The notes under the pieces are model-generated. The model had not been told where the DNA came from and ran no database searches. It saw nothing but the letters and a program-made list of their open reading frames with translations. This document shows, one piece after another, positions 1 to 10,778 of a DNA stretch of 10,840 bases. The DNA lies in NCBI GenBank assembly GCA_937901265.1, contig CALCHA010000126.1, forward strand, positions 1 to 10,840, given 5' to 3'. Numbering within the stretch: the stretch's first letter is position 1; the number at the start of each line of letters is the position of its first letter. The DNA comes from an uncultured Phycisphaerales bacterium (GTDB taxonomy: Bacteria; Planctomycetota; Phycisphaerae; WQYP01). The position numbers were made by a program, and so were the translations under genes.

Positions 1-1515
1 CTGCTCGCGACGTTGCCACTGTTCAGCGCCCAGACGCCGAAGGCGGCGGCGGGGGCGTTGGCGGGGGGCCTGGTGTGTGCGGGGGTGGGCGTGCTGGCGA
101 TGGTGAGCATTCCGGTGACGCCCTGGATCGCGGAAGCATTTGGTCGGAACTCGGCGACGTGGATGCACGAAGCCGCGCCGCCGATGGTGAATGATGATGA
201 CATGCATTTGATCTTTGCGCAGCGCTATCTGGGCCTGACGCTGCGGCTGGAGGGGGAGAATGTGGAGCTGACGGAGGCGGACCGCGCCCGGGCGACCCCG
301 GGCCAGGCGGCGTGGGTGGAGGATCACCATAAGCAACTGGCGTCGGCGATGAAGCGGCTGGCGGCCGGGGGCCCGGCGCTGCCGCTGTTGCTGGCGAATT
401 ATTACGACAACCCGAAGGAACGGCCGGACCGCTTCTGCACGTTTGTGGGAGAGGGCATGAACGTCTCGGTGGCGGTGACCTACGTGCCCGACGCCAGCGA
501 TCCGAACAACCCGCACCTGTATCGCTATTTCCATGGCGCGGGAAAGGTGCAGGCATCCAGCGACGCCGCGGACATGCGGCTGCAGCGGTCGCTGGGGCAT
601 TTGACCGCCCTGGTGCATGATGCGAATCCGGCGAACACGCCGGCGGAGAATGTGCTGGTGGTGGCGTGCGGGGCGGGGGTGACGGCGGGGTCGTTCGTGC
701 CCTACGACACCGTCAAGAGCATCACGATCTGCGACATTGAACCCATGGTTCCGGCGCGGGTGGCGCCGCTGTTCGCCAAAGAGAATTACAACGTGGTGGC
801 GGATCCGCGGACCACGGTGGTGCTGGACGATGGGCGCCATTTCGTGCGGACGACCAAGGAGAAGTTCGACATCATCACCTCCGATCCGATCGATCCCTGG
901 GTCAAGGGTTGCGCGGCGCTCAACACGGTGGAATATTACGAGATGTGCAAGGAACATCTGAAGCCGGGCGGGGTCATGGCATTGTGGATTCCGCTCTACG
1001 AGAACAACGAGGATTCAGCCAAGTCCATCATTGCGACCTTCTTCAAGGTCTTCCCCAACGGGATGCTGTGGTCGAACGACATCACCAGCGGCGAGGGTTA
1101 TGACGCGGTACTCTTCGGCACGACCGATGCCTGCACGATTAACGTGGACGCGGTGCAGGCCTATCTGGATAGCCACCCGAAGGTCAAGGATTCGCTCACC
1201 GAGGTGGGCTTTGGCAAGAGTGACGGGCTGGTGGCGGTGGACCTGCTCTCGACGTTCGCGGCGGATGCGGAGCATGTGAAGCCCTGGACGAATGGGGCGG
1301 AACTGAACGAGGATATGAACCTGCGGCTGCAGTATCTGGCGGGGCTCTGGCTGAACAAACAGATGGCCCCGGAGATTCTGCGGAACATTTTGAAGTGTTA
1401 CGAATTTCCGAATGACATTTTTCAGGGTTCCCCCGCGACGATCCGGGCGTTAAAAGAGCATTTGATTGCGAAGAACCGGATTCCGGCAAGTTTTAGAAGT
1501 GGGCCGACACAATGA
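1..1515 (+). CDS. Membrane-fused spermidine synthase-like protein, C-terminal part
   Basis: The frame is open from base 1, and the first in-frame start-like codon (TTG at 13) falls inside a hydrophobic stretch, so the gene is cut by the window edge. What remains is a last membrane segment (codons about 15-40), a linker of about 170 residues, and a Rossmann methyltransferase-like domain. That domain has a glycine-rich SAM-type loop (VACGAGVTAG, codons 221-230), an acidic motif CDIEP (about 244), DDGRHF (276-281) and DIITSDPIDPW (290-300). The last resembles the catalytic Asp-containing segment of spermidine synthases, which transfer aminopropyl groups to putrescine. In fused MFS/spermidine-synthase proteins this domain follows many membrane helices, which fits the truncated N-terminus. 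Polyamine synthesis by such fused proteins is not certain, and the true substrate may differ. The stop overlaps the next gene's ATG, suggesting co-transcription. Confidence 0.85.
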   Translation: MLATLPLFSAQTPKAAAGALAGGLVCAGVGVLAMVSIPVTPWIAEAFGRNSATWMHEAAPPMVNDDDMHLIFAQRYLGLTLRLEGENVELTEADRARATPGQAAWVEDHHKQLASAMKRLAAGGPALPLLLANYYDNPKERPDRFCTFVGEGMNVSVAVTYVPDASDPNNPHLYRYFHGAGKVQASSDAADMRLQRSLGHLTALVHDANPANTPAENVLVVACGAGVTAGSFVPYDTVKSITICDIEPMVPARVAPLFAKENYNVVADPRTTVVLDDGRHFVRTTKEKFDIITSDPIDPWVKGCAALNTVEYYEMCKEHLKPGGVMALWIPLYENNEDSAKSIIATFFKVFPNGMLWSNDITSGEGYDAVLFGTTDACTINVDAVQAYLDSHPKVKDSLTEVGFGKSDGLVAVDLLSTFAADAEHVKPWTNGAELNEDMNLRLQYLAGLWLNKQMAPEILRNILKCYEFPNDIFQGSPATIRALKEHLIAKNRIPASFRSGPTQ

Positions 1516-3443
1516 AGTATGCATTTTTGATGGCCGCGGCTGTGGTGGTGGCCGCGGGCGTTGCGACGGCGGCAGTTCCGGCAGCGGGGGCGGGGGGGGC
1601 TGCCCCCGGAGCCATTGCCCCGCAGCCGGGGGCGCGGACGTTTGATGTGCGGGCGTATGGTGCCACCGGGGATGGCAAGACGCTGGACACGGCGGCGATC
1701 GCGGCGGCGTTGGATGCGGCGGAAAAGGCGGGCGGGGGGACGGTGACTTTCCCCGCGGGGACCTACGCGAGCTTCAGCGTGCGGCTGCGCAGCAATGTGT
1801 CACTGCACCTGGCGGAGGGGGCGGTGCTGCTGGCGGCGACACCGCCGCGGGAGGGGCCTGGGGCGCGAGGCGGATTCGGTGGGGGCGGGCGCGGGAATGG
1901 CGGCGGCGGGCGGGGAGGCAATGGCGCGGGCGGGGGGAATGGTGGCGGGGGCGGCGCGGGTGCTGCGCGCGGAGCGATCGGGCAGGGCGGCGGGGCGATT
2001 TACAGCGGCGACAACTTCGGGGCCAGCGATCCGACGACGTTGCCGGCACCCCGTGCAGGCGGGCGCGGAGCGGGCGGAGGTCAGGGTCGCGGTCAGGGTC
2101 GCGGAGCGGGCGGCGGCCAGGGAGGCGGCCAGGGTCGCGGGCGAGCGGGCGGCGGGCAGGCCCAGGCGGCGGCATCTCAGCCAGCAGCGACGGGCCCGGC
2201 CCCAGCCGGTTACGACCCGGCCGAGCCCAACGAGTTTGATGCCTACCAGGACTTTGGCCATTCGCACTGGCACAACTCGCTGCTCTGGGGCGAAAACCTC
2301 AAGCACGTGACCATCAGCGGCCCGGGGAGAATTGACGGGCAGGGCCTGTCGCGCAGCGCCAGCGAACGCAACCCCACCGGCAACAAGATTTTCGGCCTGA
2401 AGAATTGCGATGACGTGACGATCCGCGATGTCACCTTGTATCGCGGCGGCCATTTCGCGCTGCTGGCCACGGGCGTGGACCATCTGACGCTCGATCACGT
2501 GACCGTGGATACCGACCGCGACGGCTTCGACATCGACGCCTGCCAGCACGTCACAATAACCAACTGCACCCTCAATTCGCCCAACGATGATGCGCTGGTG
2601 CTCAAATCCTCCTACGCCCTGGGCGTTGCCCGGCCCTGCGACGACATCACCATCAAGAATTGCCACGTCTCGGGCTTCGATGAGGGCACGCTCCTCGACG
2701 GCACGAAACAGACCACCCAGCGCACCGCCCCCGATCGCGGCGGCGTGACGGGGCGGATCAAGTTCGGCACGGAATCCAACGGCGGCTTCAAGAATATCAC
2801 CATCAGCGACTGCACGTTCGAGCATTGCCGCGGGCTGGCGATCGAAAGCGTCGATGGCGGCCCGATCGAGAACATCACGGTCAACAACCTGACGATGAAC
2901 GATGTCACCAGTGCGCCGCTCTTCGTGCGTCTGGGCAACCGGGCCCGCGGGCCCGAGGGCACGCCGGTGGCGACCGTGAAGCACATCGTGATTTCCAACG
3001 TCACCGCGACGCTCGCCGATCCACGCTACGGGTCGCTTTTCTCCGGCATTCCGGGCCATTCCATCGAAGACCTCACGCTGAGCCACCTGCGGCTGGAATA
3101 CCTCGGCGGCGGCGGAAAAGCGGATGTTGCGATCGAGCCTCCCGAGAATGAGGCGGGCTATCCCGATCCGAACATGTTCGGCGTCGTGCCGGCGTATGGG
3201 TTGTACTTTCGGCACGTGAAGAATCTGCAGGTCAGCGACGTGCAGATGACGTATGTGAAGGCGGAGGCGCGGCCGCCGATCGTGCTGGAGGACGTGCAGG
3301 GGGCGACCTTTGAGGATGTGCGGACGAAGCGCGAACCGGGGGTCGCGGTGTTTCGCCTGAAGGATGTGAAGGATCTGACGGTCAAGCAGGTGGAGGGGGT
3401 TGCGGACGGGCGGAAGGAAGCGACGACCGAGGAGTCGCTGTAG
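1512..3443 (+). CDS. Secreted GH28-type beta-helix glycosidase (pectinase/rhamnogalacturonase-like)
   Basis: This is a 643-residue exported protein. A signal peptide (residues 1 to about 20, cut near ATA-AVP) is followed by the pectate-lyase-superfamily opening motif FDVRAYGATGDGKT (about 44-57). A Gly-rich insert (about 112-232) comes next, then a right-handed beta-helix with repeated IxNxxI-type coils. GH28-like acidic residues are visible: D337 in DRDGFD and the pair D359-D360 in PNDDALVLKS. GRIKFGTESNGGF (414-426) and RGLAIES (440-446) match the later GH28 blocks, but the His of the GHG motif and the Arg/Lys of RIK are not in place (A443 and E445 at the RxK positions). It would hydrolyse galacturonan or rhamnogalacturonan in the periplasm or outside the cell; the exact substrate is inferred only from the downstream PL4 gene. 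The ATG lies in an ATGA overlap with the preceding stop, so translation is probably coupled. No strong Shine-Dalgarno is visible. Confidence 0.82.
   Translation: MKYAFLMAAAVVVAAGVATAAVPAAGAGGAAPGAIAPQPGARTFDVRAYGATGDGKTLDTAAIAAALDAAEKAGGGTVTFPAGTYASFSVRLRSNVSLHLAEGAVLLAATPPREGPGARGGFGGGGRGNGGGGRGGNGAGGGNGGGGGAGAARGAIGQGGGAIYSGDNFGASDPTTLPAPRAGGRGAGGGQGRGQGRGAGGGQGGGQGRGRAGGGQAQAAASQPAATGPAPAGYDPAEPNEFDAYQDFGHSHWHNSLLWGENLKHVTISGPGRIDGQGLSRSASERNPTGNKIFGLKNCDDVTIRDVTLYRGGHFALLATGVDHLTLDHVTVDTDRDGFDIDACQHVTITNCTLNSPNDDALVLKSSYALGVARPCDDITIKNCHVSGFDEGTLLDGTKQTTQRTAPDRGGVTGRIKFGTESNGGFKNITISDCTFEHCRGLAIESVDGGPIENITVNNLTMNDVTSAPLFVRLGNRARGPEGTPVATVKHIVISNVTATLADPRYGSLFSGIPGHSIEDLTLSHLRLEYLGGGGKADVAIEPPENEAGYPDPNMFGVVPAYGLYFRHVKNLQVSDVQMTYVKAEARPPIVLEDVQGATFEDVRTKREPGVAVFRLKDVKDLTVKQVEGVADGRKEATTEESL
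1845..2207 (+). other. Gly/Arg/Gln-rich low-complexity insert in the GH28-type protein
   Basis: About 120 codons (residues about 112-232) encode mainly Gly, Ala, Arg, Gln and Asn, with GGGGRGNGGGG-like and GQGR-type units. A short non-repetitive island (AIYSGDNFGASDPTT) sits in the middle. The insert separates the first beta-helix coil (ending near LAEGAVLLAATPP) from the coil beginning near LKHVTISGPGRIDGQG. In ordinary GH28 proteins these two blocks are joined by a short loop. The reading frame is intact throughout, so this is an in-frame expansion and not a frameshift. Confidence 0.85.
2079..2102 (+). repeat. Two perfect tandem copies of a 12-bp unit
   Basis: GGTCAGGGTCGC occurs twice head to tail, encoding GQGR-type repeats. 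Degenerate copies (GGCCAGGGAGGC, GGCCAGGGTCGC) follow up to about 2140. This is consistent with local expansion by replication slippage inside the Gly-rich insert. Confidence 0.8.
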
Positions 3444-3444
3444 C

Positions 3445-3466
3445 GGGGGCCGGGGGCGGGGGCGGG
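3445..3466 (+). other. G-quadruplex-like G-run cluster just after a stop codon
   Basis: Four G-runs of 5, 5, 5 and 3 bases lie on the + strand, separated by loops of only 2, 1 and 1 bases. The cluster starts 2 bases after the TAG of the GH28-type gene. The pattern satisfies the usual G4 motif in both the coding DNA strand and the RNA. Folding in vivo is not shown. Confidence 0.55.
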
Positions 3467-3478
3467 CGGCAGGGCAAA

Positions 3479-3647
3479 CGCATTCTCCGGCGTGGCATCG
3501 GCATCCTGACGATGTTGGGCTGAAGGCCCCTTGCGTCGGCGGTCGAAAAAGTGTCAGGCACAGCGGTATTTTGAACCGGGCCATTGCGCCGCGATTGCAT
3601 CGGCTGCGGCCGATCATTGGCAGGATGCCGATGCCACGGAGAATGCG
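3479..3647. repeat. Intergenic inverted-repeat element, about 169 bp
   Basis: The left arm (3479-3508) and right arm (3621-3647) are reverse complements over 27 bases: CGCATTCTCC plus GTGGCATCGGCATCCTG. They are interrupted only by 3 extra bases (GGC, 3489-3491) in the left arm. Between the arms lie AAAAAGTGTCAGGCAC (3546-3561) and a small hairpin ATCGGC-TGCG-GCCGAT (3599-3614). The element fills most of the otherwise gene-free gap 3444-3768. It has no coding capacity of its own and resembles dispersed palindromic or MITE-like elements of planctomycete genomes; that comparison is from memory and cannot be checked within this single window. Confidence 0.7.
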
Positions 3648-3708
3648 ATTGCCTCCATTGGGCGAAATTTCCGGGGGTGCGGGGCGTTGAACCAAGGGTG
3701 CATCTCCG

Positions 3709-3739
3709 GCGGGGGCGTGGGGGTGGCTCCCGCTCCCGC
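3709..3739 (+). promoter_or_regulatory. GC-rich hairpin in the leader of the PL4 lyase gene
   Basis: Bases 3709-3721 pair with 3727-3739: 12 pairs including two G-T wobbles, one mismatch (3718/3730), and a 5-base loop. It lies 17 bases before the Shine-Dalgarno of the downstream lyase and is not followed by a T-run. It is therefore more likely a leader structure than an intrinsic terminator. Its role is unknown. Confidence 0.45.
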
Positions 3740-3756
3740 TTGTTGATGGTGCTGAT

Positions 3757-3763
3757 GAGGAGG
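3757..3763 (+). promoter_or_regulatory. Strong ribosome binding site that sets the PL4 start
   Basis: GAGGAGG lies 5 bases before the ATG at 3769. An in-frame GTG at 3763 overlaps this site and so cannot be the start. The ATG at 3769 also gives a clean signal peptide. Confidence 0.85.
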
Positions 3764-3768
3764 TGTTC

Positions 3769-5748
3769 ATGCGCCGCTTTACCCCTGCTGTTGTCCTCGC
3801 CCTCTCCCTCGCCGCAGCGTGGGCCTCGACGGCGCGCGCCGCGGATGCCGTCACGGTCACCGACGATGGCGAGGTGTTCACTCTCACCAATGGCATCGTG
3901 ACCGCGAAGGTGCTCAAGCGCAATGGGAACCTCGGATCGCTGGTCTATCGCGGGATCGAAATGACCGCCGGCAGCATCCAGCGCCCGAGCAGCTACTGGT
4001 CGCACAACGCGGCCAGCGACAACACGACGGCCCGGGTCACGATCGATCCGGCGACCAACGGCGGGGAGCGCGCGGAGGTGTCGATCAAGGGGCTCTCCAA
4101 CGGCAAGCCGATGGGGGCGGGACCGGGGGGCTCGGCGATCGCCGACATTGAAATCCGCTACACCCTCGAGCGCGGCCTGAGCGGGCTTTACACCTACACC
4201 ATCTGGGAACACAAGCCCGACTATCCCTACACCAGCGTCGGCGAGGCGCGGTTTCTGGTGAAGCTCAATGATGCCGTCTTCGACTGGATGACCGTCGACG
4301 CCAAGCGCAACTTCCAGATGTTTTCCGCGCACGACTGGAACTACGGCACGGTGCTCAACATGAAAGAGGTGCGGCTGCTCAACACCGGCATCCAGAAGGG
4401 GGAGGTGGAGCACAAGTATGATTATTCGGCCAACCAGTTCGACACGCTGGCGTGGGGCTGGAGCAGCACGGGCCAGCACGTGGGCTGCTGGTTTGTGAAC
4501 CCGACGACGGAGTATCTTTCGGGCGGGCCGACGAAAATTGAGCTGTCCGCGCACCGGGATGCCACGTTCAATCCGGACGCCAAGGATGCCCCCGCGCCGC
4601 CCTGCCTGCTGAATTACTGGCGGGGGAGCCACTATGGCGGGTCGTCGATCGTGGTGCCGCAGGGGGAGGAATGGACGAAGGTGGTGGGGCCCTTTTTGAT
4701 TTACTGCAATGGGGGAGCAGCGAGCGAGACGCCGGAGGCGCTGTGGAAAGATGCGCTTGCGCGGAGGCCGGTGGAGACCCGGGCGTGGCCCTACGGGTGG
4801 GTGGAGGGGGTGGACTATCCGCATGCGGCGCAGCGCTCGACGGTCAGCGGGCGGCTGCTGCTCAGCGATGCGCAGGCGAAGGGGCCCGGGCTGACGCACC
4901 TGCGGGTGGGCCTTTCGCACGCGGATTACACGCCGCCGGCAAATCCCGCCGGCGCCGCGCGCGGCGGGCCGCCGCGGGTGGTGACGTGGCAGGATGACGC
5001 GAAATATTATCAATTCTGGGCGCGCGCCAATGCCGACGGGAGCTTTTCCATCCCCGACGTGCGACCCGGGACCTACACGCTTCATGCGATCGCCGACAAC
5101 GTGCTGGGGGAGTTTGCCCAGGCCGACGTGACGGTGGAGACGGGAAAGCCCCTGGAACTGGGGAGCCTCACGTGGAAGCCGGTGCGCTACGGGCGGCAAC
5201 TCTGGGAGATCGGGGAGCCCGACCGCACCTGCAGCGAGTTCCGCGGCGGCACGGATGCCTACTCCTGGGGCATGTACAACAAGTACGCGGCAGCCTTTCC
5301 CGACGATGTGAATTACACGATCGGAACGTCCGATCCCGCGAAAGACTGGTACCTGATGGAGGTGCCGCACTGGGATGGCAAGACGCTTCAGAAAGGGGGA
5401 GGGACCGATTATCAGGGGCGGCAGACCACCTGGACGATCCACTTCGCCATGCCCGCGGCCGTGCGCGGAAAGGCGACGCTGCGGCTGGCCTTCGCCGGTG
5501 CCGAGGCACGGAGCCTCACGGTGGCGGTGAACGATCAGGATGTCAGCCGGATCACCGGCCTGCTCAACACGGGCATGATCCATCGCGATGCGGACCGCTC
5601 CTACTGGCAGGAGCGCGATGTGCCCTTCGATGCCGCGATGCTGAAGAAGGGCGACAACACGATCAAGCTCACCGTGCCGGCGGGGTTAACGACGGCGGGG
5701 GTGGCGTACGACTATCTGCGCCTGGAGCTGGACGAGGAGGCGAAGTAG
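3769..5748 (+). CDS. Secreted rhamnogalacturonan lyase, PL4 family
   Basis: This 659-residue exported enzyme is expected to cleave the rhamnose-galacturonic acid backbone of rhamnogalacturonan I by beta-elimination. A signal peptide (residues 1 to about 24, cut after ARA) is followed by three domains in the order typical of PL4. First is a catalytic beta-sandwich (about 26-335), starting at LTNGIVTAKVLKRNGNLGSL and containing EYLSGGPTK. Second is an FnIII-like domain (about 355-460), with SIPDVRPGTYTLHAIAD near its end. Third is a C-terminal carbohydrate-binding-like jelly roll (about 465-657), with LWEIGEPDRT and the closing YDYLRLEL. Lys216 in HKYDYS and His288 in RGSHYGG probably correspond to the catalytic Lys/His pair described for the fungal family member; this rests on alignment from memory. 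The start is fixed by a strong Shine-Dalgarno. It follows the GH28-type gene after a gap of about 325 bases and likely works on the same polymer. No convincing promoter was seen. Confidence 0.92.
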   Translation: MRRFTPAVVLALSLAAAWASTARAADAVTVTDDGEVFTLTNGIVTAKVLKRNGNLGSLVYRGIEMTAGSIQRPSSYWSHNAASDNTTARVTIDPATNGGERAEVSIKGLSNGKPMGAGPGGSAIADIEIRYTLERGLSGLYTYTIWEHKPDYPYTSVGEARFLVKLNDAVFDWMTVDAKRNFQMFSAHDWNYGTVLNMKEVRLLNTGIQKGEVEHKYDYSANQFDTLAWGWSSTGQHVGCWFVNPTTEYLSGGPTKIELSAHRDATFNPDAKDAPAPPCLLNYWRGSHYGGSSIVVPQGEEWTKVVGPFLIYCNGGAASETPEALWKDALARRPVETRAWPYGWVEGVDYPHAAQRSTVSGRLLLSDAQAKGPGLTHLRVGLSHADYTPPANPAGAARGGPPRVVTWQDDAKYYQFWARANADGSFSIPDVRPGTYTLHAIADNVLGEFAQADVTVETGKPLELGSLTWKPVRYGRQLWEIGEPDRTCSEFRGGTDAYSWGMYNKYAAAFPDDVNYTIGTSDPAKDWYLMEVPHWDGKTLQKGGGTDYQGRQTTWTIHFAMPAAVRGKATLRLAFAGAEARSLTVAVNDQDVSRITGLLNTGMIHRDADRSYWQERDVPFDAAMLKKGDNTIKLTVPAGLTTAGVAYDYLRLELDEEAK

Positions 5749-5750
5749 CC

Positions 5751-8700
5751 TCATTTGGCGGCGGAAAGCGTGCCGCTGGAGGGGTCGAGCGTCAGCCGCA
5801 GCGACGCCTCGGTTTTTTCCGGGACGGTGAGGGTGCCCCTGGCGGTGCGGCCATCGGGGAGTTTCACAGTGACGTCGTAGGTGCCATGAAAGGCGCGGGC
5901 GGTGATGCGGCCATCGAGACCGGTCTGGGTGTCGACGTGCGTGTGCCAGGTTTCGTGGAGGAGCTTGCGGATCGCTTCGATGGCCGGCTCGGGGTTGCCC
6001 TTGCTGTCCTCCATGCCCCCGGAGGGTCCCCAGCCCGAGGGGTTCAGGCCCCAGAGGTTGACCATATCGACATGGGGATTGGAGAAGGCGACGGTGAAGT
6101 AGCGGGCGAAGTATTCCGCGCGGAGCGCCGGCGTCCATGTGCCGTGGCGGACGGGGCCGGTGATTGGGTAGCCGTTGGGGGGCAGGTATTCCTCGGTGAG
6201 GTGCACGCGGACGCCCTGATCGACGAATTTCTGGATGACTTCGTACTCTTCGCGCGGGTCGGCCCAGAGGCCGGCGGGGTGGTGGGCGTGCAGGCCGAAG
6301 TAATCGGGCGTGATGCCCTGGCTCTTGAGCCAGAGGAGGTCGTCAAAACCCTTGAACTGGCCCCAGTTGCGGTGTTCGCTGGGGCCATTGCCGTCCCAGA
6401 GGCGCACGCAATCGGAGATGCCCAGCTGGATGCCCGGGTACTTGGCGCGCAGCAGCCTGAACACTTCCGGCGTGAGCTTGAGAAGGTACCCTTCGTTCTC
6501 CACCTGCCAGTATTTGACCTTGCCGACATAGCGGTCCACGACGGCCAGGGCGTGCTCGTTGAAGGCCTTCTGCGTGGGATTGGTGCGCATGTACACCGGG
6601 AGAATGCCCGAGAGGTAGTGGTATTCCAGCGTCATGTGGTGCTGCTGGGCGAAATCAACGTATTTGTCGAGGTCGCTCCAGCGCATGTCGCCGGGCGTGG
6701 GTTCGACGTAGCACCACTTTCCCGAGAAGGGGATCATCGACGCATTGAAGGCGCTGGCGGCCAATTGAAGTTCGCGGGGGGTGACCGGCGCGGGCTTCTG
6801 GTCGCCGATGGGGCTGATGTTGTTGGGTTCAAAAAAGCCCAGCGACACGCCGAACGAAAAGGCGTGGTTCGTCTGTTCGAGCGTGATCGGGGCCGCCTGC
6901 ACCGGACGCCCCGCGGAATCGACGATCTGCAGCGTGATGTCGGCCTTGCGGTATTTTTCGATGTTTCCCGCGACCGTGGTGTTCATGAACTTTTCGATGG
7001 CCGCCCACTGCACCGGGTTGTTCACGTCCGCCGGCGGAGGCGGGGCGTCGGCCACGCGCGCGATTTCGGGCTTGTAGAGGGCGTAGCGCTGGTCTTCATA
7101 AGCCACGGCAAGGGAGCGCGGGGCGGGGCTCTCGCGCGGAAGCAGGATGTAGTCCGCATCATATTTTTTTGCCAGCGCCGCCAGCGCGCGGTCGTCCAGC
7201 GTGCCCAGCGCGTCGCCGCGGGCGACCAGCGAGGCGTTGTCCTTGGCCAGCAGCAGGTGCGGCTCCAGGTCGCGGACGCGCGCGAGCCACTCGGGCCCGA
7301 AGTCGGCGGAAAAATAGAGCTGCGTGCCGTCGCGCCAGTCGCCGACGATCGCCCGCTCCGCCCCGATGCGAAAGTTGGCCATGCCGCTGGGCGTGAGGAA
7401 CAGGGCGTCGGGAGCGGTGTGGGTGTTGGCCCAGGTTTCCATGTCGGCGAGGGCGGCGGCATCCGGCGTGCGCGGGGCGGGATCGATGTCGCGCCCGTAG
7501 AGCGCCACGCTCAGCAGCAACCCCGCGGCAAGCGCCGCCGTGCCGATGCCCCACTGAATTTTGCGCGATCTGACCGCCGTCGCCCCCACCGCGAGAGCGG
7601 CCGCGATCAGCAGCGGCCCCCACGCCAGCACCGCGCCCCAGCGCCCTGTATCCACGCCCAGCCAGTCGCCAGCTCCCGCCCCCGGCAGTCCGGGAATCGG
7701 AAACCCCAGCCGCAGGTGGGCGAGAAACGCCACCAGCAACGCAAAGGCGACCACGATCGCCTGCCCCCACCACAGCCGACCGCTCACCAGCGCCGCCACA
7801 GCCGCGGCGGCGACGGCCCAGGGAAGCAGCGGCAGGAGCGCGGGAATCGCCAGCGTCAGGAACACAAAAATGCCCGCGATCAGCTCCGCCGCACGCGCCG
7901 CCGGACGCAGCGTCACTGCCGGGCCATGAGCGCTCGCCGCCGCGCCGCACGCCCCCGCGCGCACCCCCATGGCGCACGCGTGCGCGATATGCACCAGCAT
8001 CAGCACCAGCAGCAGCCGCGACGCCCGGAACGGCTGCAGCCGGATCATCAAGGGCCAGGGATGGATTTCCGTAAAGTAGTACCCCGCCGCAAAAAACGCG
8101 GCGAGCGCCGCCGTCATCAGCACCGTCATCCGCGCCGTGCGCACGCTGAATCCCTTCCAGCGCACCGGGGCGAAACTCCACGAAAGCACGAACAACGCGA
8201 AAAACAGCACAAACCGCGGCACCTCCGGATCGCCCGCCACCCACCACGAACTCGGAAACGAATGGTCCGCCGATCGCACCCGCATGAGGTTGACCCAGCC
8301 CGCATCGAAAACCTGGTGCTGCGTCACCATCTGCACCAGCGTGGGCAGCGCCGGCACGATCGCCGCGCCGCCACAGAGCGCGACCCGGCGGAACCAGATC
8401 GCCGGACGCTCGCGCCCCAGATCCGCCAGCAGCGCCGCCCCCAGCATCAGCATCACATACGCCGCCGTGAGCGCATGGATGTTGAACAGTATCCCCGCCA
8501 GGAGAAACCCAGCGACCAGCCGGCGGCGATACCCCAGGGCCAGCGCCGCCACCGCGATCGGAAGCGCGATGTAGGTGTGCGTGAAACCGGTCGAATAAAG
8601 CCCGTCACCGGCCAGTGCCTGATGATGCCCCGCCACCAGCAGCACCACGCCCGCCAGCGCCGCGGTGTGGCTGCGAAAGATCGCCCGCCCCAGCGCATAC

Positions 8701-9047
8701 ACGGCGGCGAGCGTTGCAAAGCTGGTGAGAATCTGCAGCACCAGATACACCGGCGCAAGGCCAAACGCCCTCACCAGCGGAGCGATCATGCGGAAGAAAA
8801 AGCTGGGATACAGCGGCATGGTCTGGCGGACCATCTCGTCGTTGGCGAAGAGCCCCGGCGACGCCCACGCTTTCACGAAAGCGATCTGGATCGCCTGGTT
8901 GCCCACGCCGATCTGATACCCGGCGACGGCGATCTGCGCCACCGCCAGCAGCAGACAAATGCCCACGCCGACGACTGCCGGCGCTCCGGGTTTGCCGGTT
9001 GCCGCCCGTTGGCTCAACGCCGGCGTCTCAGGGACTGCACTGTTCAT
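5751..9047 (-). CDS. Polytopic membrane protein fused to a periplasmic GH10 (xylanase-like) domain
   Basis: This single intact frame encodes about 1,098 residues. Residues about 25-520 hold 13-15 hydrophobic segments with short loops, like large GT-C-type or DUF6798-like membrane proteins. A soluble segment follows (about 525-670) with ETWANTHTAPDALFLTP and IVGDWRDGTQLYF, a pattern I associate with that membrane family. From about 695 a GH10-like module begins: ITLQIVDSAGRPV and FSFGVSLGFF, then KWCYVEPTPGDMRW (about 776), YWQVENEGY with E852 as the expected acid/base, GLHAHHP (about 920), LTEEYLP with E952 as the expected nucleophile, and VNLWGLNPSGW (about 1000). A small C-terminal beta domain ends the protein. 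The 100-residue gap between the two Glu fits GH10. The C-terminal part should face the periplasm. The ATG at 9047 is chosen; a GTG at 9053 is possible and neither has a strong ribosome site. The stop is 2 bases from the converging PL4 gene. Substrate and role of the membrane part are unknown. Confidence 0.85.
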   Translation of the reverse strand: MNSAVPETPALSQRAATGKPGAPAVVGVGICLLLAVAQIAVAGYQIGVGNQAIQIAFVKAWASPGLFANDEMVRQTMPLYPSFFFRMIAPLVRAFGLAPVYLVLQILTSFATLAAVYALGRAIFRSHTAALAGVVLLVAGHHQALAGDGLYSTGFTHTYIALPIAVAALALGYRRRLVAGFLLAGILFNIHALTAAYVMLMLGAALLADLGRERPAIWFRRVALCGGAAIVPALPTLVQMVTQHQVFDAGWVNLMRVRSADHSFPSSWWVAGDPEVPRFVLFFALFVLSWSFAPVRWKGFSVRTARMTVLMTAALAAFFAAGYYFTEIHPWPLMIRLQPFRASRLLLVLMLVHIAHACAMGVRAGACGAAASAHGPAVTLRPAARAAELIAGIFVFLTLAIPALLPLLPWAVAAAAVAALVSGRLWWGQAIVVAFALLVAFLAHLRLGFPIPGLPGAGAGDWLGVDTGRWGAVLAWGPLLIAAALAVGATAVRSRKIQWGIGTAALAAGLLLSVALYGRDIDPAPRTPDAAALADMETWANTHTAPDALFLTPSGMANFRIGAERAIVGDWRDGTQLYFSADFGPEWLARVRDLEPHLLLAKDNASLVARGDALGTLDDRALAALAKKYDADYILLPRESPAPRSLAVAYEDQRYALYKPEIARVADAPPPPADVNNPVQWAAIEKFMNTTVAGNIEKYRKADITLQIVDSAGRPVQAAPITLEQTNHAFSFGVSLGFFEPNNISPIGDQKPAPVTPRELQLAASAFNASMIPFSGKWCYVEPTPGDMRWSDLDKYVDFAQQHHMTLEYHYLSGILPVYMRTNPTQKAFNEHALAVVDRYVGKVKYWQVENEGYLLKLTPEVFRLLRAKYPGIQLGISDCVRLWDGNGPSEHRNWGQFKGFDDLLWLKSQGITPDYFGLHAHHPAGLWADPREEYEVIQKFVDQGVRVHLTEEYLPPNGYPITGPVRHGTWTPALRAEYFARYFTVAFSNPHVDMVNLWGLNPSGWGPSGGMEDSKGNPEPAIEAIRKLLHETWHTHVDTQTGLDGRITARAFHGTYDVTVKLPDGRTARGTLTVPEKTEASLRLTLDPSSGTLSAAK

Positions 9048-9123
9048 GATCACGGTCCACTCTTACACACAGGGACGACTTCCCGATCTCCCACGTTTCC
9101 ACCCACGCGGCTTCGTCACGCAA

Positions 9124-9163
9124 GTTGCGGCACGACCCTGCTTTCATGCACATCTGCCGCAAC
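9124..9163. promoter_or_regulatory. Perfect 9-bp dyad, possible operator
   Basis: GTTGCGGCA (9124-9132) and its exact reverse complement TGCCGCAAC (9155-9163) are spaced 31 bases centre to centre, about three helical turns. They lie between two divergent genes and end one base before a possible -35 box. The layout suits a dimeric regulator bound at two half-sites, or a looped operator. No regulator gene is in the window. Confidence 0.4.
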
Positions 9164-9164
9164 C

Positions 9165-9194
9165 TTTTCACGCTGTCCGCGTTACCCCTACACT
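9165..9194 (+). promoter_or_regulatory. Possible sigma70-like promoter for the TPR-like gene
   Basis: TTTTCA (9165-9170), 18 bases, then TACACT (9189-9194); each box matches 4 of 6 consensus bases. Transcription would start only a few bases before the ATG at 9209, giving a very short leader. This is a weak match. Confidence 0.3.
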
Positions 9195-9208
9195 ACAACG
9201 GTGAAACC

Positions 9209-9664
9209 ATGACCCAGCATGCACGAAAACCCGCCGCCGCCGCTCTTCTGCTCACCCTTGCCCTCGGGCTCGCGGCGCTGGGCGCGACCGGGCGTCTGGC
9301 GGCGGAAAAGCCCACCAGCGACCTCCACGCCCTCGAAAAGCAGATCGCCGGCCATCCCGATGCCGCCACCTGGAACGCTTATGGCGATGCCCTCCGCGCT
9401 GCAGGCCGCAGCACCACCGCCGCTGAAGCCTATCGGCGAGCGCTGGAGCTCGACCCCGGCCTCCGCAATGCACGCATCAACCTGGCGCTCTCGCTCGTCG
9501 CCGCCGGCGATGCCGATGGCTTCTTTTCCTATGTCTCCCGCCTCACCCTCACCGATCCCAAGTTCGCCGCTCTCCTGATGGACCGGGCCGAACTCGCGCC
9601 CCTGCGCGGCGATCCACGCTTCCCCATCGCCCGCACCACCGCTCACGCCGCCGCCGTCGATTGA
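9209..9664 (+). CDS. Small exported TPR-like protein
   Basis: This 151-residue protein has an N-terminal hydrophobic stretch (residues 8-27) followed by LAAEKP, which reads as a signal peptide or membrane anchor. Residues about 38-100 form two tetratricopeptide-like helix pairs: WNAYGDALRAAGRSTTAAEA leading into YRRALELDPG, then ARINLALSLVAAGD. The closing AELAPLRGDPRF resembles the common C-terminal motif of bacterial TPR proteins. TPRs mediate protein-protein contact; no partner can be named. The frame extends upstream to a non-canonical possible start at 9125 (TTG), but that would place charged residues before the signal and overlap the dyad. The ATG at 9209, preceded by a weak GGTGA, is preferred. 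It diverges from the membrane-GH10 gene and converges on the endonuclease gene with a 24-base gap. Confidence 0.75.
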   Translation: MTQHARKPAAAALLLTLALGLAALGATGRLAAEKPTSDLHALEKQIAGHPDAATWNAYGDALRAAGRSTTAAEAYRRALELDPGLRNARINLALSLVAAGDADGFFSYVSRLTLTDPKFAALLMDRAELAPLRGDPRFPIARTTAHAAAVD

Positions 9665-9688: not shown

Positions 9689-10576
9689 TCACCACATCGG
9701 CCACACTTTGCCCTTCAGAGAGGCCCCCTCCGCCACCTCCGGCAGGAACGTCAGCCCTGTCTCCTTCTCGATCTCCGCGATGCTGCTGAGAAAGGGCCCC
9801 GGCAGTTCCGTCCCGCGCACACTCTGCGGCATGATCACCGAAAACACCCGCACCCGCCCCCCCGTCCGCTCCACCAGGATCTTGTAAAACGCCGCCGGCA
9901 CCGCGATGCCGCTACGCAGCGTCCGCGCCGCCCCGCCGTTGAGGTCCGCGAATATCGGGCCGTCCGTCACCCACACCTCCCCGCTCTTGTCCGCATAAGG
10001 CACCTCCCGCGCCTCCAGCTTGTCCCACACCCGCTCGTTCAAATTCGGCGACTGCGGGCAGATGTTGCTCAGCAGAAACGTCTCGTGCTGCGCGTCGGCA
10101 CCAAAGCAGTGGGCGATCGCCGCGTTGGGCGCCATGTGGCCCCGGTCAAAGCCCGAGCCCGTGAAATCATCGTGCGTCGTCCGCGCCCGCGTCCGCGTGT
10201 CCGTCACAAAGTTCCCCGTCGGCCGCGGCAGGCGGAAGGGATGCTCCGTCGCGATCACGTGATAGCACACGTACAGCGGATCGCGCCGCGCATCCGAATA
10301 GCCCGAAATGTACGCGATGTTCCGCAACACCGTGACCGGATACCCCGCCGATGCTCGCGGCAACCCGCCGAACACGATCCCGTTTTCCGTGACCAGCGGC
10401 CCCGAAACTTCGCCCGCACCCGTGGCGGCGATCGGCGGCGGCTCCGCGGCCGGCGACAGCGCCCCCTGCCGCCGAACGAGCACGAAATAGAGCAGCGTCC
10501 CCAGCAGCAGCAGGATGATGAAAACCATCACCCCGGCGGGCATTCGGAAAGTCTTCGGCAAACGGGATCGAGCCAT
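9689..10576 (-). CDS. Membrane-anchored DNA/RNA non-specific endonuclease
   Basis: This 295-residue protein belongs to the beta-beta-alpha-metal (NucA/Serratia-nuclease) type, which cuts DNA and RNA with a single Mg2+ ion. After a basic N-terminus comes one membrane segment (GVMVFIILLLLGTLLYFVLV, about 14-33), so the nuclease domain should lie outside the cytoplasm. The signature DRGHMAPN (144-151) holds the general base His147. SNICPQSPNLNERVW contains Asn180 at the place of the metal-binding Asn of Serratia nuclease, and Glu188 in WDKLE also matches. All key residues are present and the domain is full length. The ATG at 10576 is chosen, preceded by GGGAGAG about 11 bases upstream; a TTG at 10615 would extend it by 13 residues. 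Such enzymes serve in nutrient nucleic-acid scavenging or defence, and nothing here decides which. No adjacent immunity or inhibitor gene is seen. Confidence 0.9.
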   Translation of the reverse strand: MARSRLPKTFRMPAGVMVFIILLLLGTLLYFVLVRRQGALSPAAEPPPIAATGAGEVSGPLVTENGIVFGGLPRASAGYPVTVLRNIAYISGYSDARRDPLYVCYHVIATEHPFRLPRPTGNFVTDTRTRARTTHDDFTGSGFDRGHMAPNAAIAHCFGADAQHETFLLSNICPQSPNLNERVWDKLEAREVPYADKSGEVWVTDGPIFADLNGGAARTLRSGIAVPAAFYKILVERTGGRVRVFSVIMPQSVRGTELPGPFLSSIAEIEKETGLTFLPEVAEGASLKGKVWPMW

Positions 10577-10778
10577 GCGACCGACCACTCTCCCACACCC
10601 CGCCGACGCCGTCAAAACTCCCGCGCCGGCACCAGCGCGTCATTCCCTCCCGCACACTCACCCCGTCTCCAGCACTCCCCTCCCTCAAAACCAGCCGCAA
10701 CCCGCCGCCGTCTCCAACCTCGCCATAAACTTCCCCGGGAACCAGCACACCCCCCGAGCCGCAACTTTGAATTCCCGC

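Follow-up and report, generated by a model that had tools for sequence, protein, structure and literature searches.

Results

The stretch of DNA analyzed here (the window) comprises 10,840 nucleotides of contig CALCHA010000126.1 from an uncultured Phycisphaerales bacterium, and our subject is a minus-strand gene at 9047-5751, a single unbroken frame that encodes a fusion protein of 1,098 amino acids (ATG at 9047, with an alternative in-frame GTG start possible at 9053; stop codon at 5751-5753). In this one protein, Pfam identified DUF6798 (PF20604; 42.9 bits against a cut-off of 26.9; residues 535-594) and glycoside hydrolase family 10 (GH10; PF00331; 45.8 bits against 22.1; best stretch at residues 760-852), which agrees with the original prediction of one polypeptide in an uninterrupted frame; no NCBIfam model matched the protein at an E value of 1. 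The membrane domain, with 15 helices assigned from the predicted structure and a GT-C-like fold, occupies residues 24-520 (7488-8978), followed past the last helix by the DUF6798 segment (7266-7445) and by the GH10 module, which spans residues 685-1081 (5805-6995) including its N- and C-terminal beta extensions. A plus-strand frame lies opposite the gene (5172-9212; 1,346 codons); its translation over 5751-9047 gave no Pfam match, and it was taken as a G+C-rich shadow frame.

The fusion recurs across genomes, as had been anticipated. Our homology search, in which only the 7,994 candidates sharing the most words were scored, returned 79 proteins, 68 of which carried both PF20604 and PF00331 (66 of these exceeding 950 amino acids), 10 PF20604 alone, and one neither. 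The nearest homologs share 72% identity along their whole length. Source organisms, where given, are Phycisphaerae, Phycisphaeraceae, Phycisphaerales, or Tepidisphaeraceae bacteria, and the names attached to the proteins are for the most part endo-1,4-beta-xylanase or hypothetical protein. Among these hits, six possible GH10-free close relatives were rejected, because P0035, P0040, P0077, and P0080 stop within the GH10 half, P0072 stops before it, and P0079 retains parts of it, so that none is good evidence for such a relative. A scan of contigs from named genomes gave no match with the single fusion protein as query and nine loci with relatives of the fusion when the alignment was used, titled as Phycisphaerales (two), Planctomycetota (two), Verrucomicrobiia/Verrucomicrobia (three), a PVC-group bacterium, and an uncultured bacterium. 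Two of the nine matched in part only: L042, because its contig ends, and L044, which proved to hold both domains. The fusion is nevertheless rare. A search of 397 genomes from the class, with two candidates scored per genome, gave matches at E 1e-60 in 11, four of them in the membrane half as well (G000, the genome of the window; G007; G150; and G009, whose match is divided between two contigs) and seven in the GH10 half alone. With the same scoring, 3 of 392 genomes in a phylum sample matched at E 1e-90, G000 among them. Elsewhere in the genome of the window, contig C165 carries a second copy (40% identical and truncated where the contig stops), C407 a piece resembling the N-terminal part, and C439 a GH10 match that lacks the membrane half.

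The 15 helices assigned from the model, which include two short ones of 12 and 14 residues, fall within the 13 to 15 originally predicted. With the predicted model of the membrane domain as query, fold-search matches 1-43 carried the GT-C fold. Searches with the whole protein gave GH10-type chains only among the 50 matches listed, and the membrane half was therefore folded alone. A family at the sequence level was sought and not obtained: Pfam, which has no entry for every CAZy family, gave no glycosyltransferase hit, and a PDB profile search with an alignment of mostly full-length rows (A2) contained no GT-C chain in the best 60 of 168 matches, where the named chains were xylanases, other GH10 glycanases, or designs. 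On these searches, we assigned the membrane half to no named GT-C family (e.g., GT39, GT66, GT83, GT136). The prediction of a GT-C/DUF6798-like membrane half thus holds for the predicted fold, whereas DUF6798 itself is a soluble segment past the membrane domain; the expected profile match was obtained for DUF6798 but not for a Pfam glycosyltransferase family in residues 1-532.

Conservation and topology were assessed in an alignment of 71 sequences, consisting of the window protein and 70 of the 79 hits (nine short or fragmentary hits were omitted). Loops were counted from the model helix limits, with four residues at each helix end assigned to the loop and the N-terminus placed inside. Lys and Arg were denser in the predicted inner loops (0.141 per residue) than in the outer loops (0.059), and this bias held in 71 of the 71 sequences. 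Because 15 helices with the N-terminus inside would place the DUF6798 segment and GH10 beyond the membrane, the GH10 domain likely sits outside the cytoplasmic membrane, as the original prediction had it, and the charge bias led us to reject a cytoplasmic GH10 domain.

Conservation along the fusion protein is uneven. Mean pairwise identity is highest in residues 20-365 (48.1%), drops to 30.1% in 382-525, and comes back to 43.3% in 528-665 and 44.6% in the barrel. Of the columns without any variation, 19 lie in the membrane domain, 10 within or next to the DUF6798 segment, and 7 in the GH10 half. The candidate catalytic residue of the membrane half, Asp70 (8838-8840), follows a nearly invariant stretch (GYxxGxGNQxIQ) and is Asp in 70 sequences and Asn in one; in the model, it lies between two short helices of a loop corresponding to the first outer loop. 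In PimE, ALG6, ArnT, and PglB, passages of PMC12041525 place the catalytic Asp at the apex of the first outer helix. Three aligned standalone DUF6798 proteins of the same class (577-607 amino acids; 21-23% identity) lack the GH10 half, share the DUF6798 segment with the fusion, and keep N50, D70, H191, R258, H262, W269, R341, R560, R565, and Q576. Since these ten core residues are common to proteins without GH10, the role of the membrane core appears to be independent of that domain. The constant part of the family is this membrane half with its GT-C-like fold and conserved core. At three of the seven standalone loci read (L053, L054, L055), a gene whose beginning resembles galU lies 1-4 kb from the DUF6798 gene; the L054 copy scored 321.5 bits, slightly below the NCBIfam cut-off.

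The window protein has both the GH10 profile and the barrel fold, and its Glu852 (acid/base; 6492-6494) and Glu952 (nucleophile; 6192-6194) align with the two positions mutated in the inactivated E182A/E280A variant 7d89, in line with the earlier claim that both catalytic Glu are present. Compared with the xylanases XynA (7d88) and AcXyn10A (8b73), to which it is 21% identical, the GH10 half differs in being joined to a membrane domain, in having its acid/base changed in many members, and in the residue two positions ahead of the conserved His, which is His where Gln is usual. The acid/base column holds Glu in 47 sequences, Asp in 17, and other residues in 7 (non-Glu in 24 of 71), and the nucleophile column holds Glu in 66; the resulting acid/base-nucleophile pairs are EE in 46 members, including the window protein, DE in 16, and other states in 9. 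The five pairs without the nucleophile Glu are QA (two), QG, EQ, and DD, and the paralog in the same genome has Gln and Asp at the two places. On a tree of the membrane half, at least 10 changes were needed for the acid/base (three states) and at least four for the nucleophile. We termed a site degenerate when its acid/base was neither Glu nor Asp or its nucleophile was not Glu, given that Asp as acid/base may still function. After ten further loci were added (81 rows, 79 different), the site was degenerate in 13 rows, corresponding to six changes on the tree, four of them forced by starred branches, and Asp70 was kept in all 12 degenerate members whose sequence reaches that position. The original prediction of a make-and-trim enzyme with a retaining glycosidase is thus consistent with the window protein, where both Glu are present, but these substitutions make it impossible as the function of every member. 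Judged from the aligned residues, a working retaining glycosidase is no constant of the family: the GH10 half is probably catalytic in the window protein and probably non-catalytic in some other members, and it looks like an acceptor-handling module.

On the plus strand, the window carries a GH28 rhamnogalacturonidase (1512-3443; NF049898, 660.8 bits, above cut-off) with a Gly/Arg-rich low-complexity insert of about 100 residues near residues 115-215, and a PL4 rhamnogalacturonan lyase (3763-5748; Pfam) that ends two bases from the fusion-gene stop codon, so that the two genes lie tail to tail. This tandem (1512-5748) forms a small rhamnogalacturonan degradation cluster abutting the stop of the fusion gene. 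The Pfam scan also found a spermidine-synthase-like protein, a TPR protein, and, on the minus strand, an Endonuclease_NS protein (DNA/RNA non-specific endonuclease; 9689-10615) with an N-terminal hydrophobic segment. The three-component layout of donor synthase, flippase, and GT-C enzyme was absent from the window and was seen only at L039 in genome G471, where a GtrA-type gene, the sole GtrA match of that genome, and a GT2 gene adjoin the fusion gene divergently on the opposite strand. This GT2 protein scored best against AglJ and polyprenyl-phosphate sugar synthases, in no case reaching the NCBIfam cut-off. At the same locus (also scanned as L052), a macro-domain gene overlaps the end of the fusion gene. 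GtrA was found in 5 of 12 genomes searched, including G150, G471, and G532, and the genome of the window has GT2 homologs (best 46% identical).

Behind the fusion gene, we surveyed ten loci with 2 to 11 kb of sequence and found GH3 genes at three. In the paralog of the window's own genome (L045; C165, 158-5290), the fusion stop and the GH3 start are adjacent without a gap; L043 has two GH3 genes, the first overlapping the fusion-gene stop; and in L041, the GH3 gene lies about 4 kb downstream. Their best NCBIfam score was for the xylosidase Xyl3A (548-632 bits, below the cut-off of 1250), and a GH3 nucleophile motif, by a widened pattern, was present in the L045 gene and both L043 genes and not in L041. 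The genome of the window has three GH3 matches in total, and the GH3 gene behind the L045 paralog has a signal-peptide-like start. In the fetched flanks, GH3 stood beside degenerate GH10 in three of three cases and beside members with a Glu/Asp acid/base and Glu nucleophile in none of six whole loci (Fisher 1/84 by hand, uncorrected for kinship and drawn from two lineages), a link that may reflect chance or kinship. Outside this count were L040 (195 bases behind the gene), L047 (an N-terminal piece), L051 (contig ending in the gene), and L046 (GH10 partial). At L048 (8223-12161 in G007; scanned as L036), a 1,312-residue protein with a CBM9-like domain is encoded directly behind the fusion gene.

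Discussion

We propose, with a probability of about 0.5, that this single polypeptide combines a GT-C-type membrane glycosyltransferase with an outer GH10 domain that grips, and here probably cuts, the same glycan. The recurrent fusion places two domains in one frame, and the models and charge bias predict a GT-C-like fold of 15 helices with the N-terminus in and the C-terminus out. Asp70 in the first outer loop would then be the catalytic residue, and the donor would be a polyprenyl-phosphate sugar carried across the membrane by other proteins. The GH10 barrel would take the place of the carbohydrate-binding modules of EmbC, AftD, and GT136, holding an acceptor beta-glycan near the transferase site; the barrel is kept as a domain even though its Glu were lost more than once, for which holding the acceptor is the simplest account. 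With both Glu, the barrel of the window protein would probably also hydrolyze or transglycosylate the acceptor chain, whereas relatives without them would retain binding only, and in some of these, cutting may have moved to the GH3 enzyme encoded behind the gene. That the glycan is xylan-like is only a guess, made from GH10 and the xylosidase-like GH3. We offer more tentatively, as a doubtful extension, the idea of single-chain writer-reader-editors, in which the GT-C half writes an envelope glycan that the GH10-derived barrel reads, and edits or transglycosylates where both Glu survive, the barrel having become a lectin several times and, in some of those lineages, a translationally coupled GH3 having taken over the cutting.

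Cyclic beta-1,2-glucan synthase is a membrane protein that also has a GH94 part, and GT84 is not a GT-C enzyme. Like the fusion, it combines synthase and glycoside-hydrolase-type modules in a single polypeptide (GT84 and a GH189 transglycosylation domain), but GH189 is an (alpha/alpha)6 barrel, unlike GH10, according to sections of PMC12102758. GT136 ORF12, EmbC, and AftD are known GT-C enzymes that bind their acceptors through extracytoplasmic domains, as described in parts of PMC11127046; the fusion resembles them in its predicted GT-C-like fold, in a conserved Asp in what is predicted to be the first outer loop, and in a glycan-handling domain on the same side. They append a carbohydrate-binding module, in contrast to the GH10 barrel of the fusion with both Glu in the window protein. 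The fusion's membrane half matches no Pfam glycosyltransferase family.

Several observations weigh against the proposed transferase. L019, a further standalone DUF6798 protein, keeps the Asp column and not N50 or H191, and residues 1-532 alone gave no match in a Pfam scan that drops most weak matches. His occupies, in 65 of 71 members, the position of the Gln in Q-x-H, which we take to be the canonical GH10 motif, with Gln two residues before the conserved His. Pfam and NCBIfam scans found no donor synthase or flippase among the window genes, and the fusion carriers G000 (81.6% complete), G007, and G009 gave no GtrA match. The GH28 and PL4 neighbors, and GH3 at three other loci, fit catabolism too. 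PIGU-type chains were among the fold matches of the membrane half, and the GT-C-like fold alone is therefore no proof of transferase activity, given that PIGU has such a fold without it (passages of PMC12041525). For GT136, the outer binding module was dispensable for transfer under the conditions tested (parts of PMC11127046).

Chief among the alternatives is a catabolic glycanase tethered to the membrane, in which the GT-C-like half would be an anchor or binding scaffold, comparable to PIGU in the glycosylphosphatidylinositol transamidase, GH10 would cut imported plant glycan in the periplasm, and GH3 would finish the oligomers. The PIGU precedent makes such a scaffold conceivable, but 19 invariant membrane-domain columns are hardly expected of a mere anchor, and the core residues are common to DUF6798 proteins without GH10. 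Likewise, the GH28 and PL4 enzymes suit a catabolic setting, yet their target, rhamnogalacturonan, is no usual GH10 substrate and their genes lie on the opposite strand, and the Xyl3A-like GH3 genes that would complete the pathway adjoin the degenerate members rather than those with a Glu or Asp acid/base and a Glu nucleophile. We consider this explanation unlikely. Still less probable is a transglycosylase or ligase, in which the GH10 half would move glycan chains onto a GT-C-primed acceptor instead of hydrolyzing them: GH10 is a retaining family and the nucleophile Glu is better kept than the acid/base, but the five members lacking that nucleophile would be incapable of transglycosylation. 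An assembly or gene-calling artefact joining two genes, which the original prediction had named as its possible undoing through a missed stop or frameshift, has next to nothing to recommend it beyond the fragmented draft genome (707 contigs), and is ruled out by the two-domain homologs, the nine named loci, and a single confident model spanning the joint.

In the literature searched, which left most subscription journals outside its scope, DUF6798 was not mentioned and no title described a fusion of GT-C with GH10 or another glycosidase; a CAZyme survey of Planctomycetota, as represented in portions of PMC11131199, omitted glycosyltransferases. The present names, endo-1,4-beta-xylanase in particular, class the fusion proteins with degraders of plant biomass. 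Should the membrane half be a glycosyltransferase, these proteins would instead belong to the building of envelope or exopolysaccharide in little-studied Planctomycetota and Verrucomicrobiota, and the xylanase counts of such genomes would be partly misleading. With the transferase constant, the family's natural gradation from an intact to a degenerate GH10 would then illustrate a route by which a hydrolase becomes a binding module.
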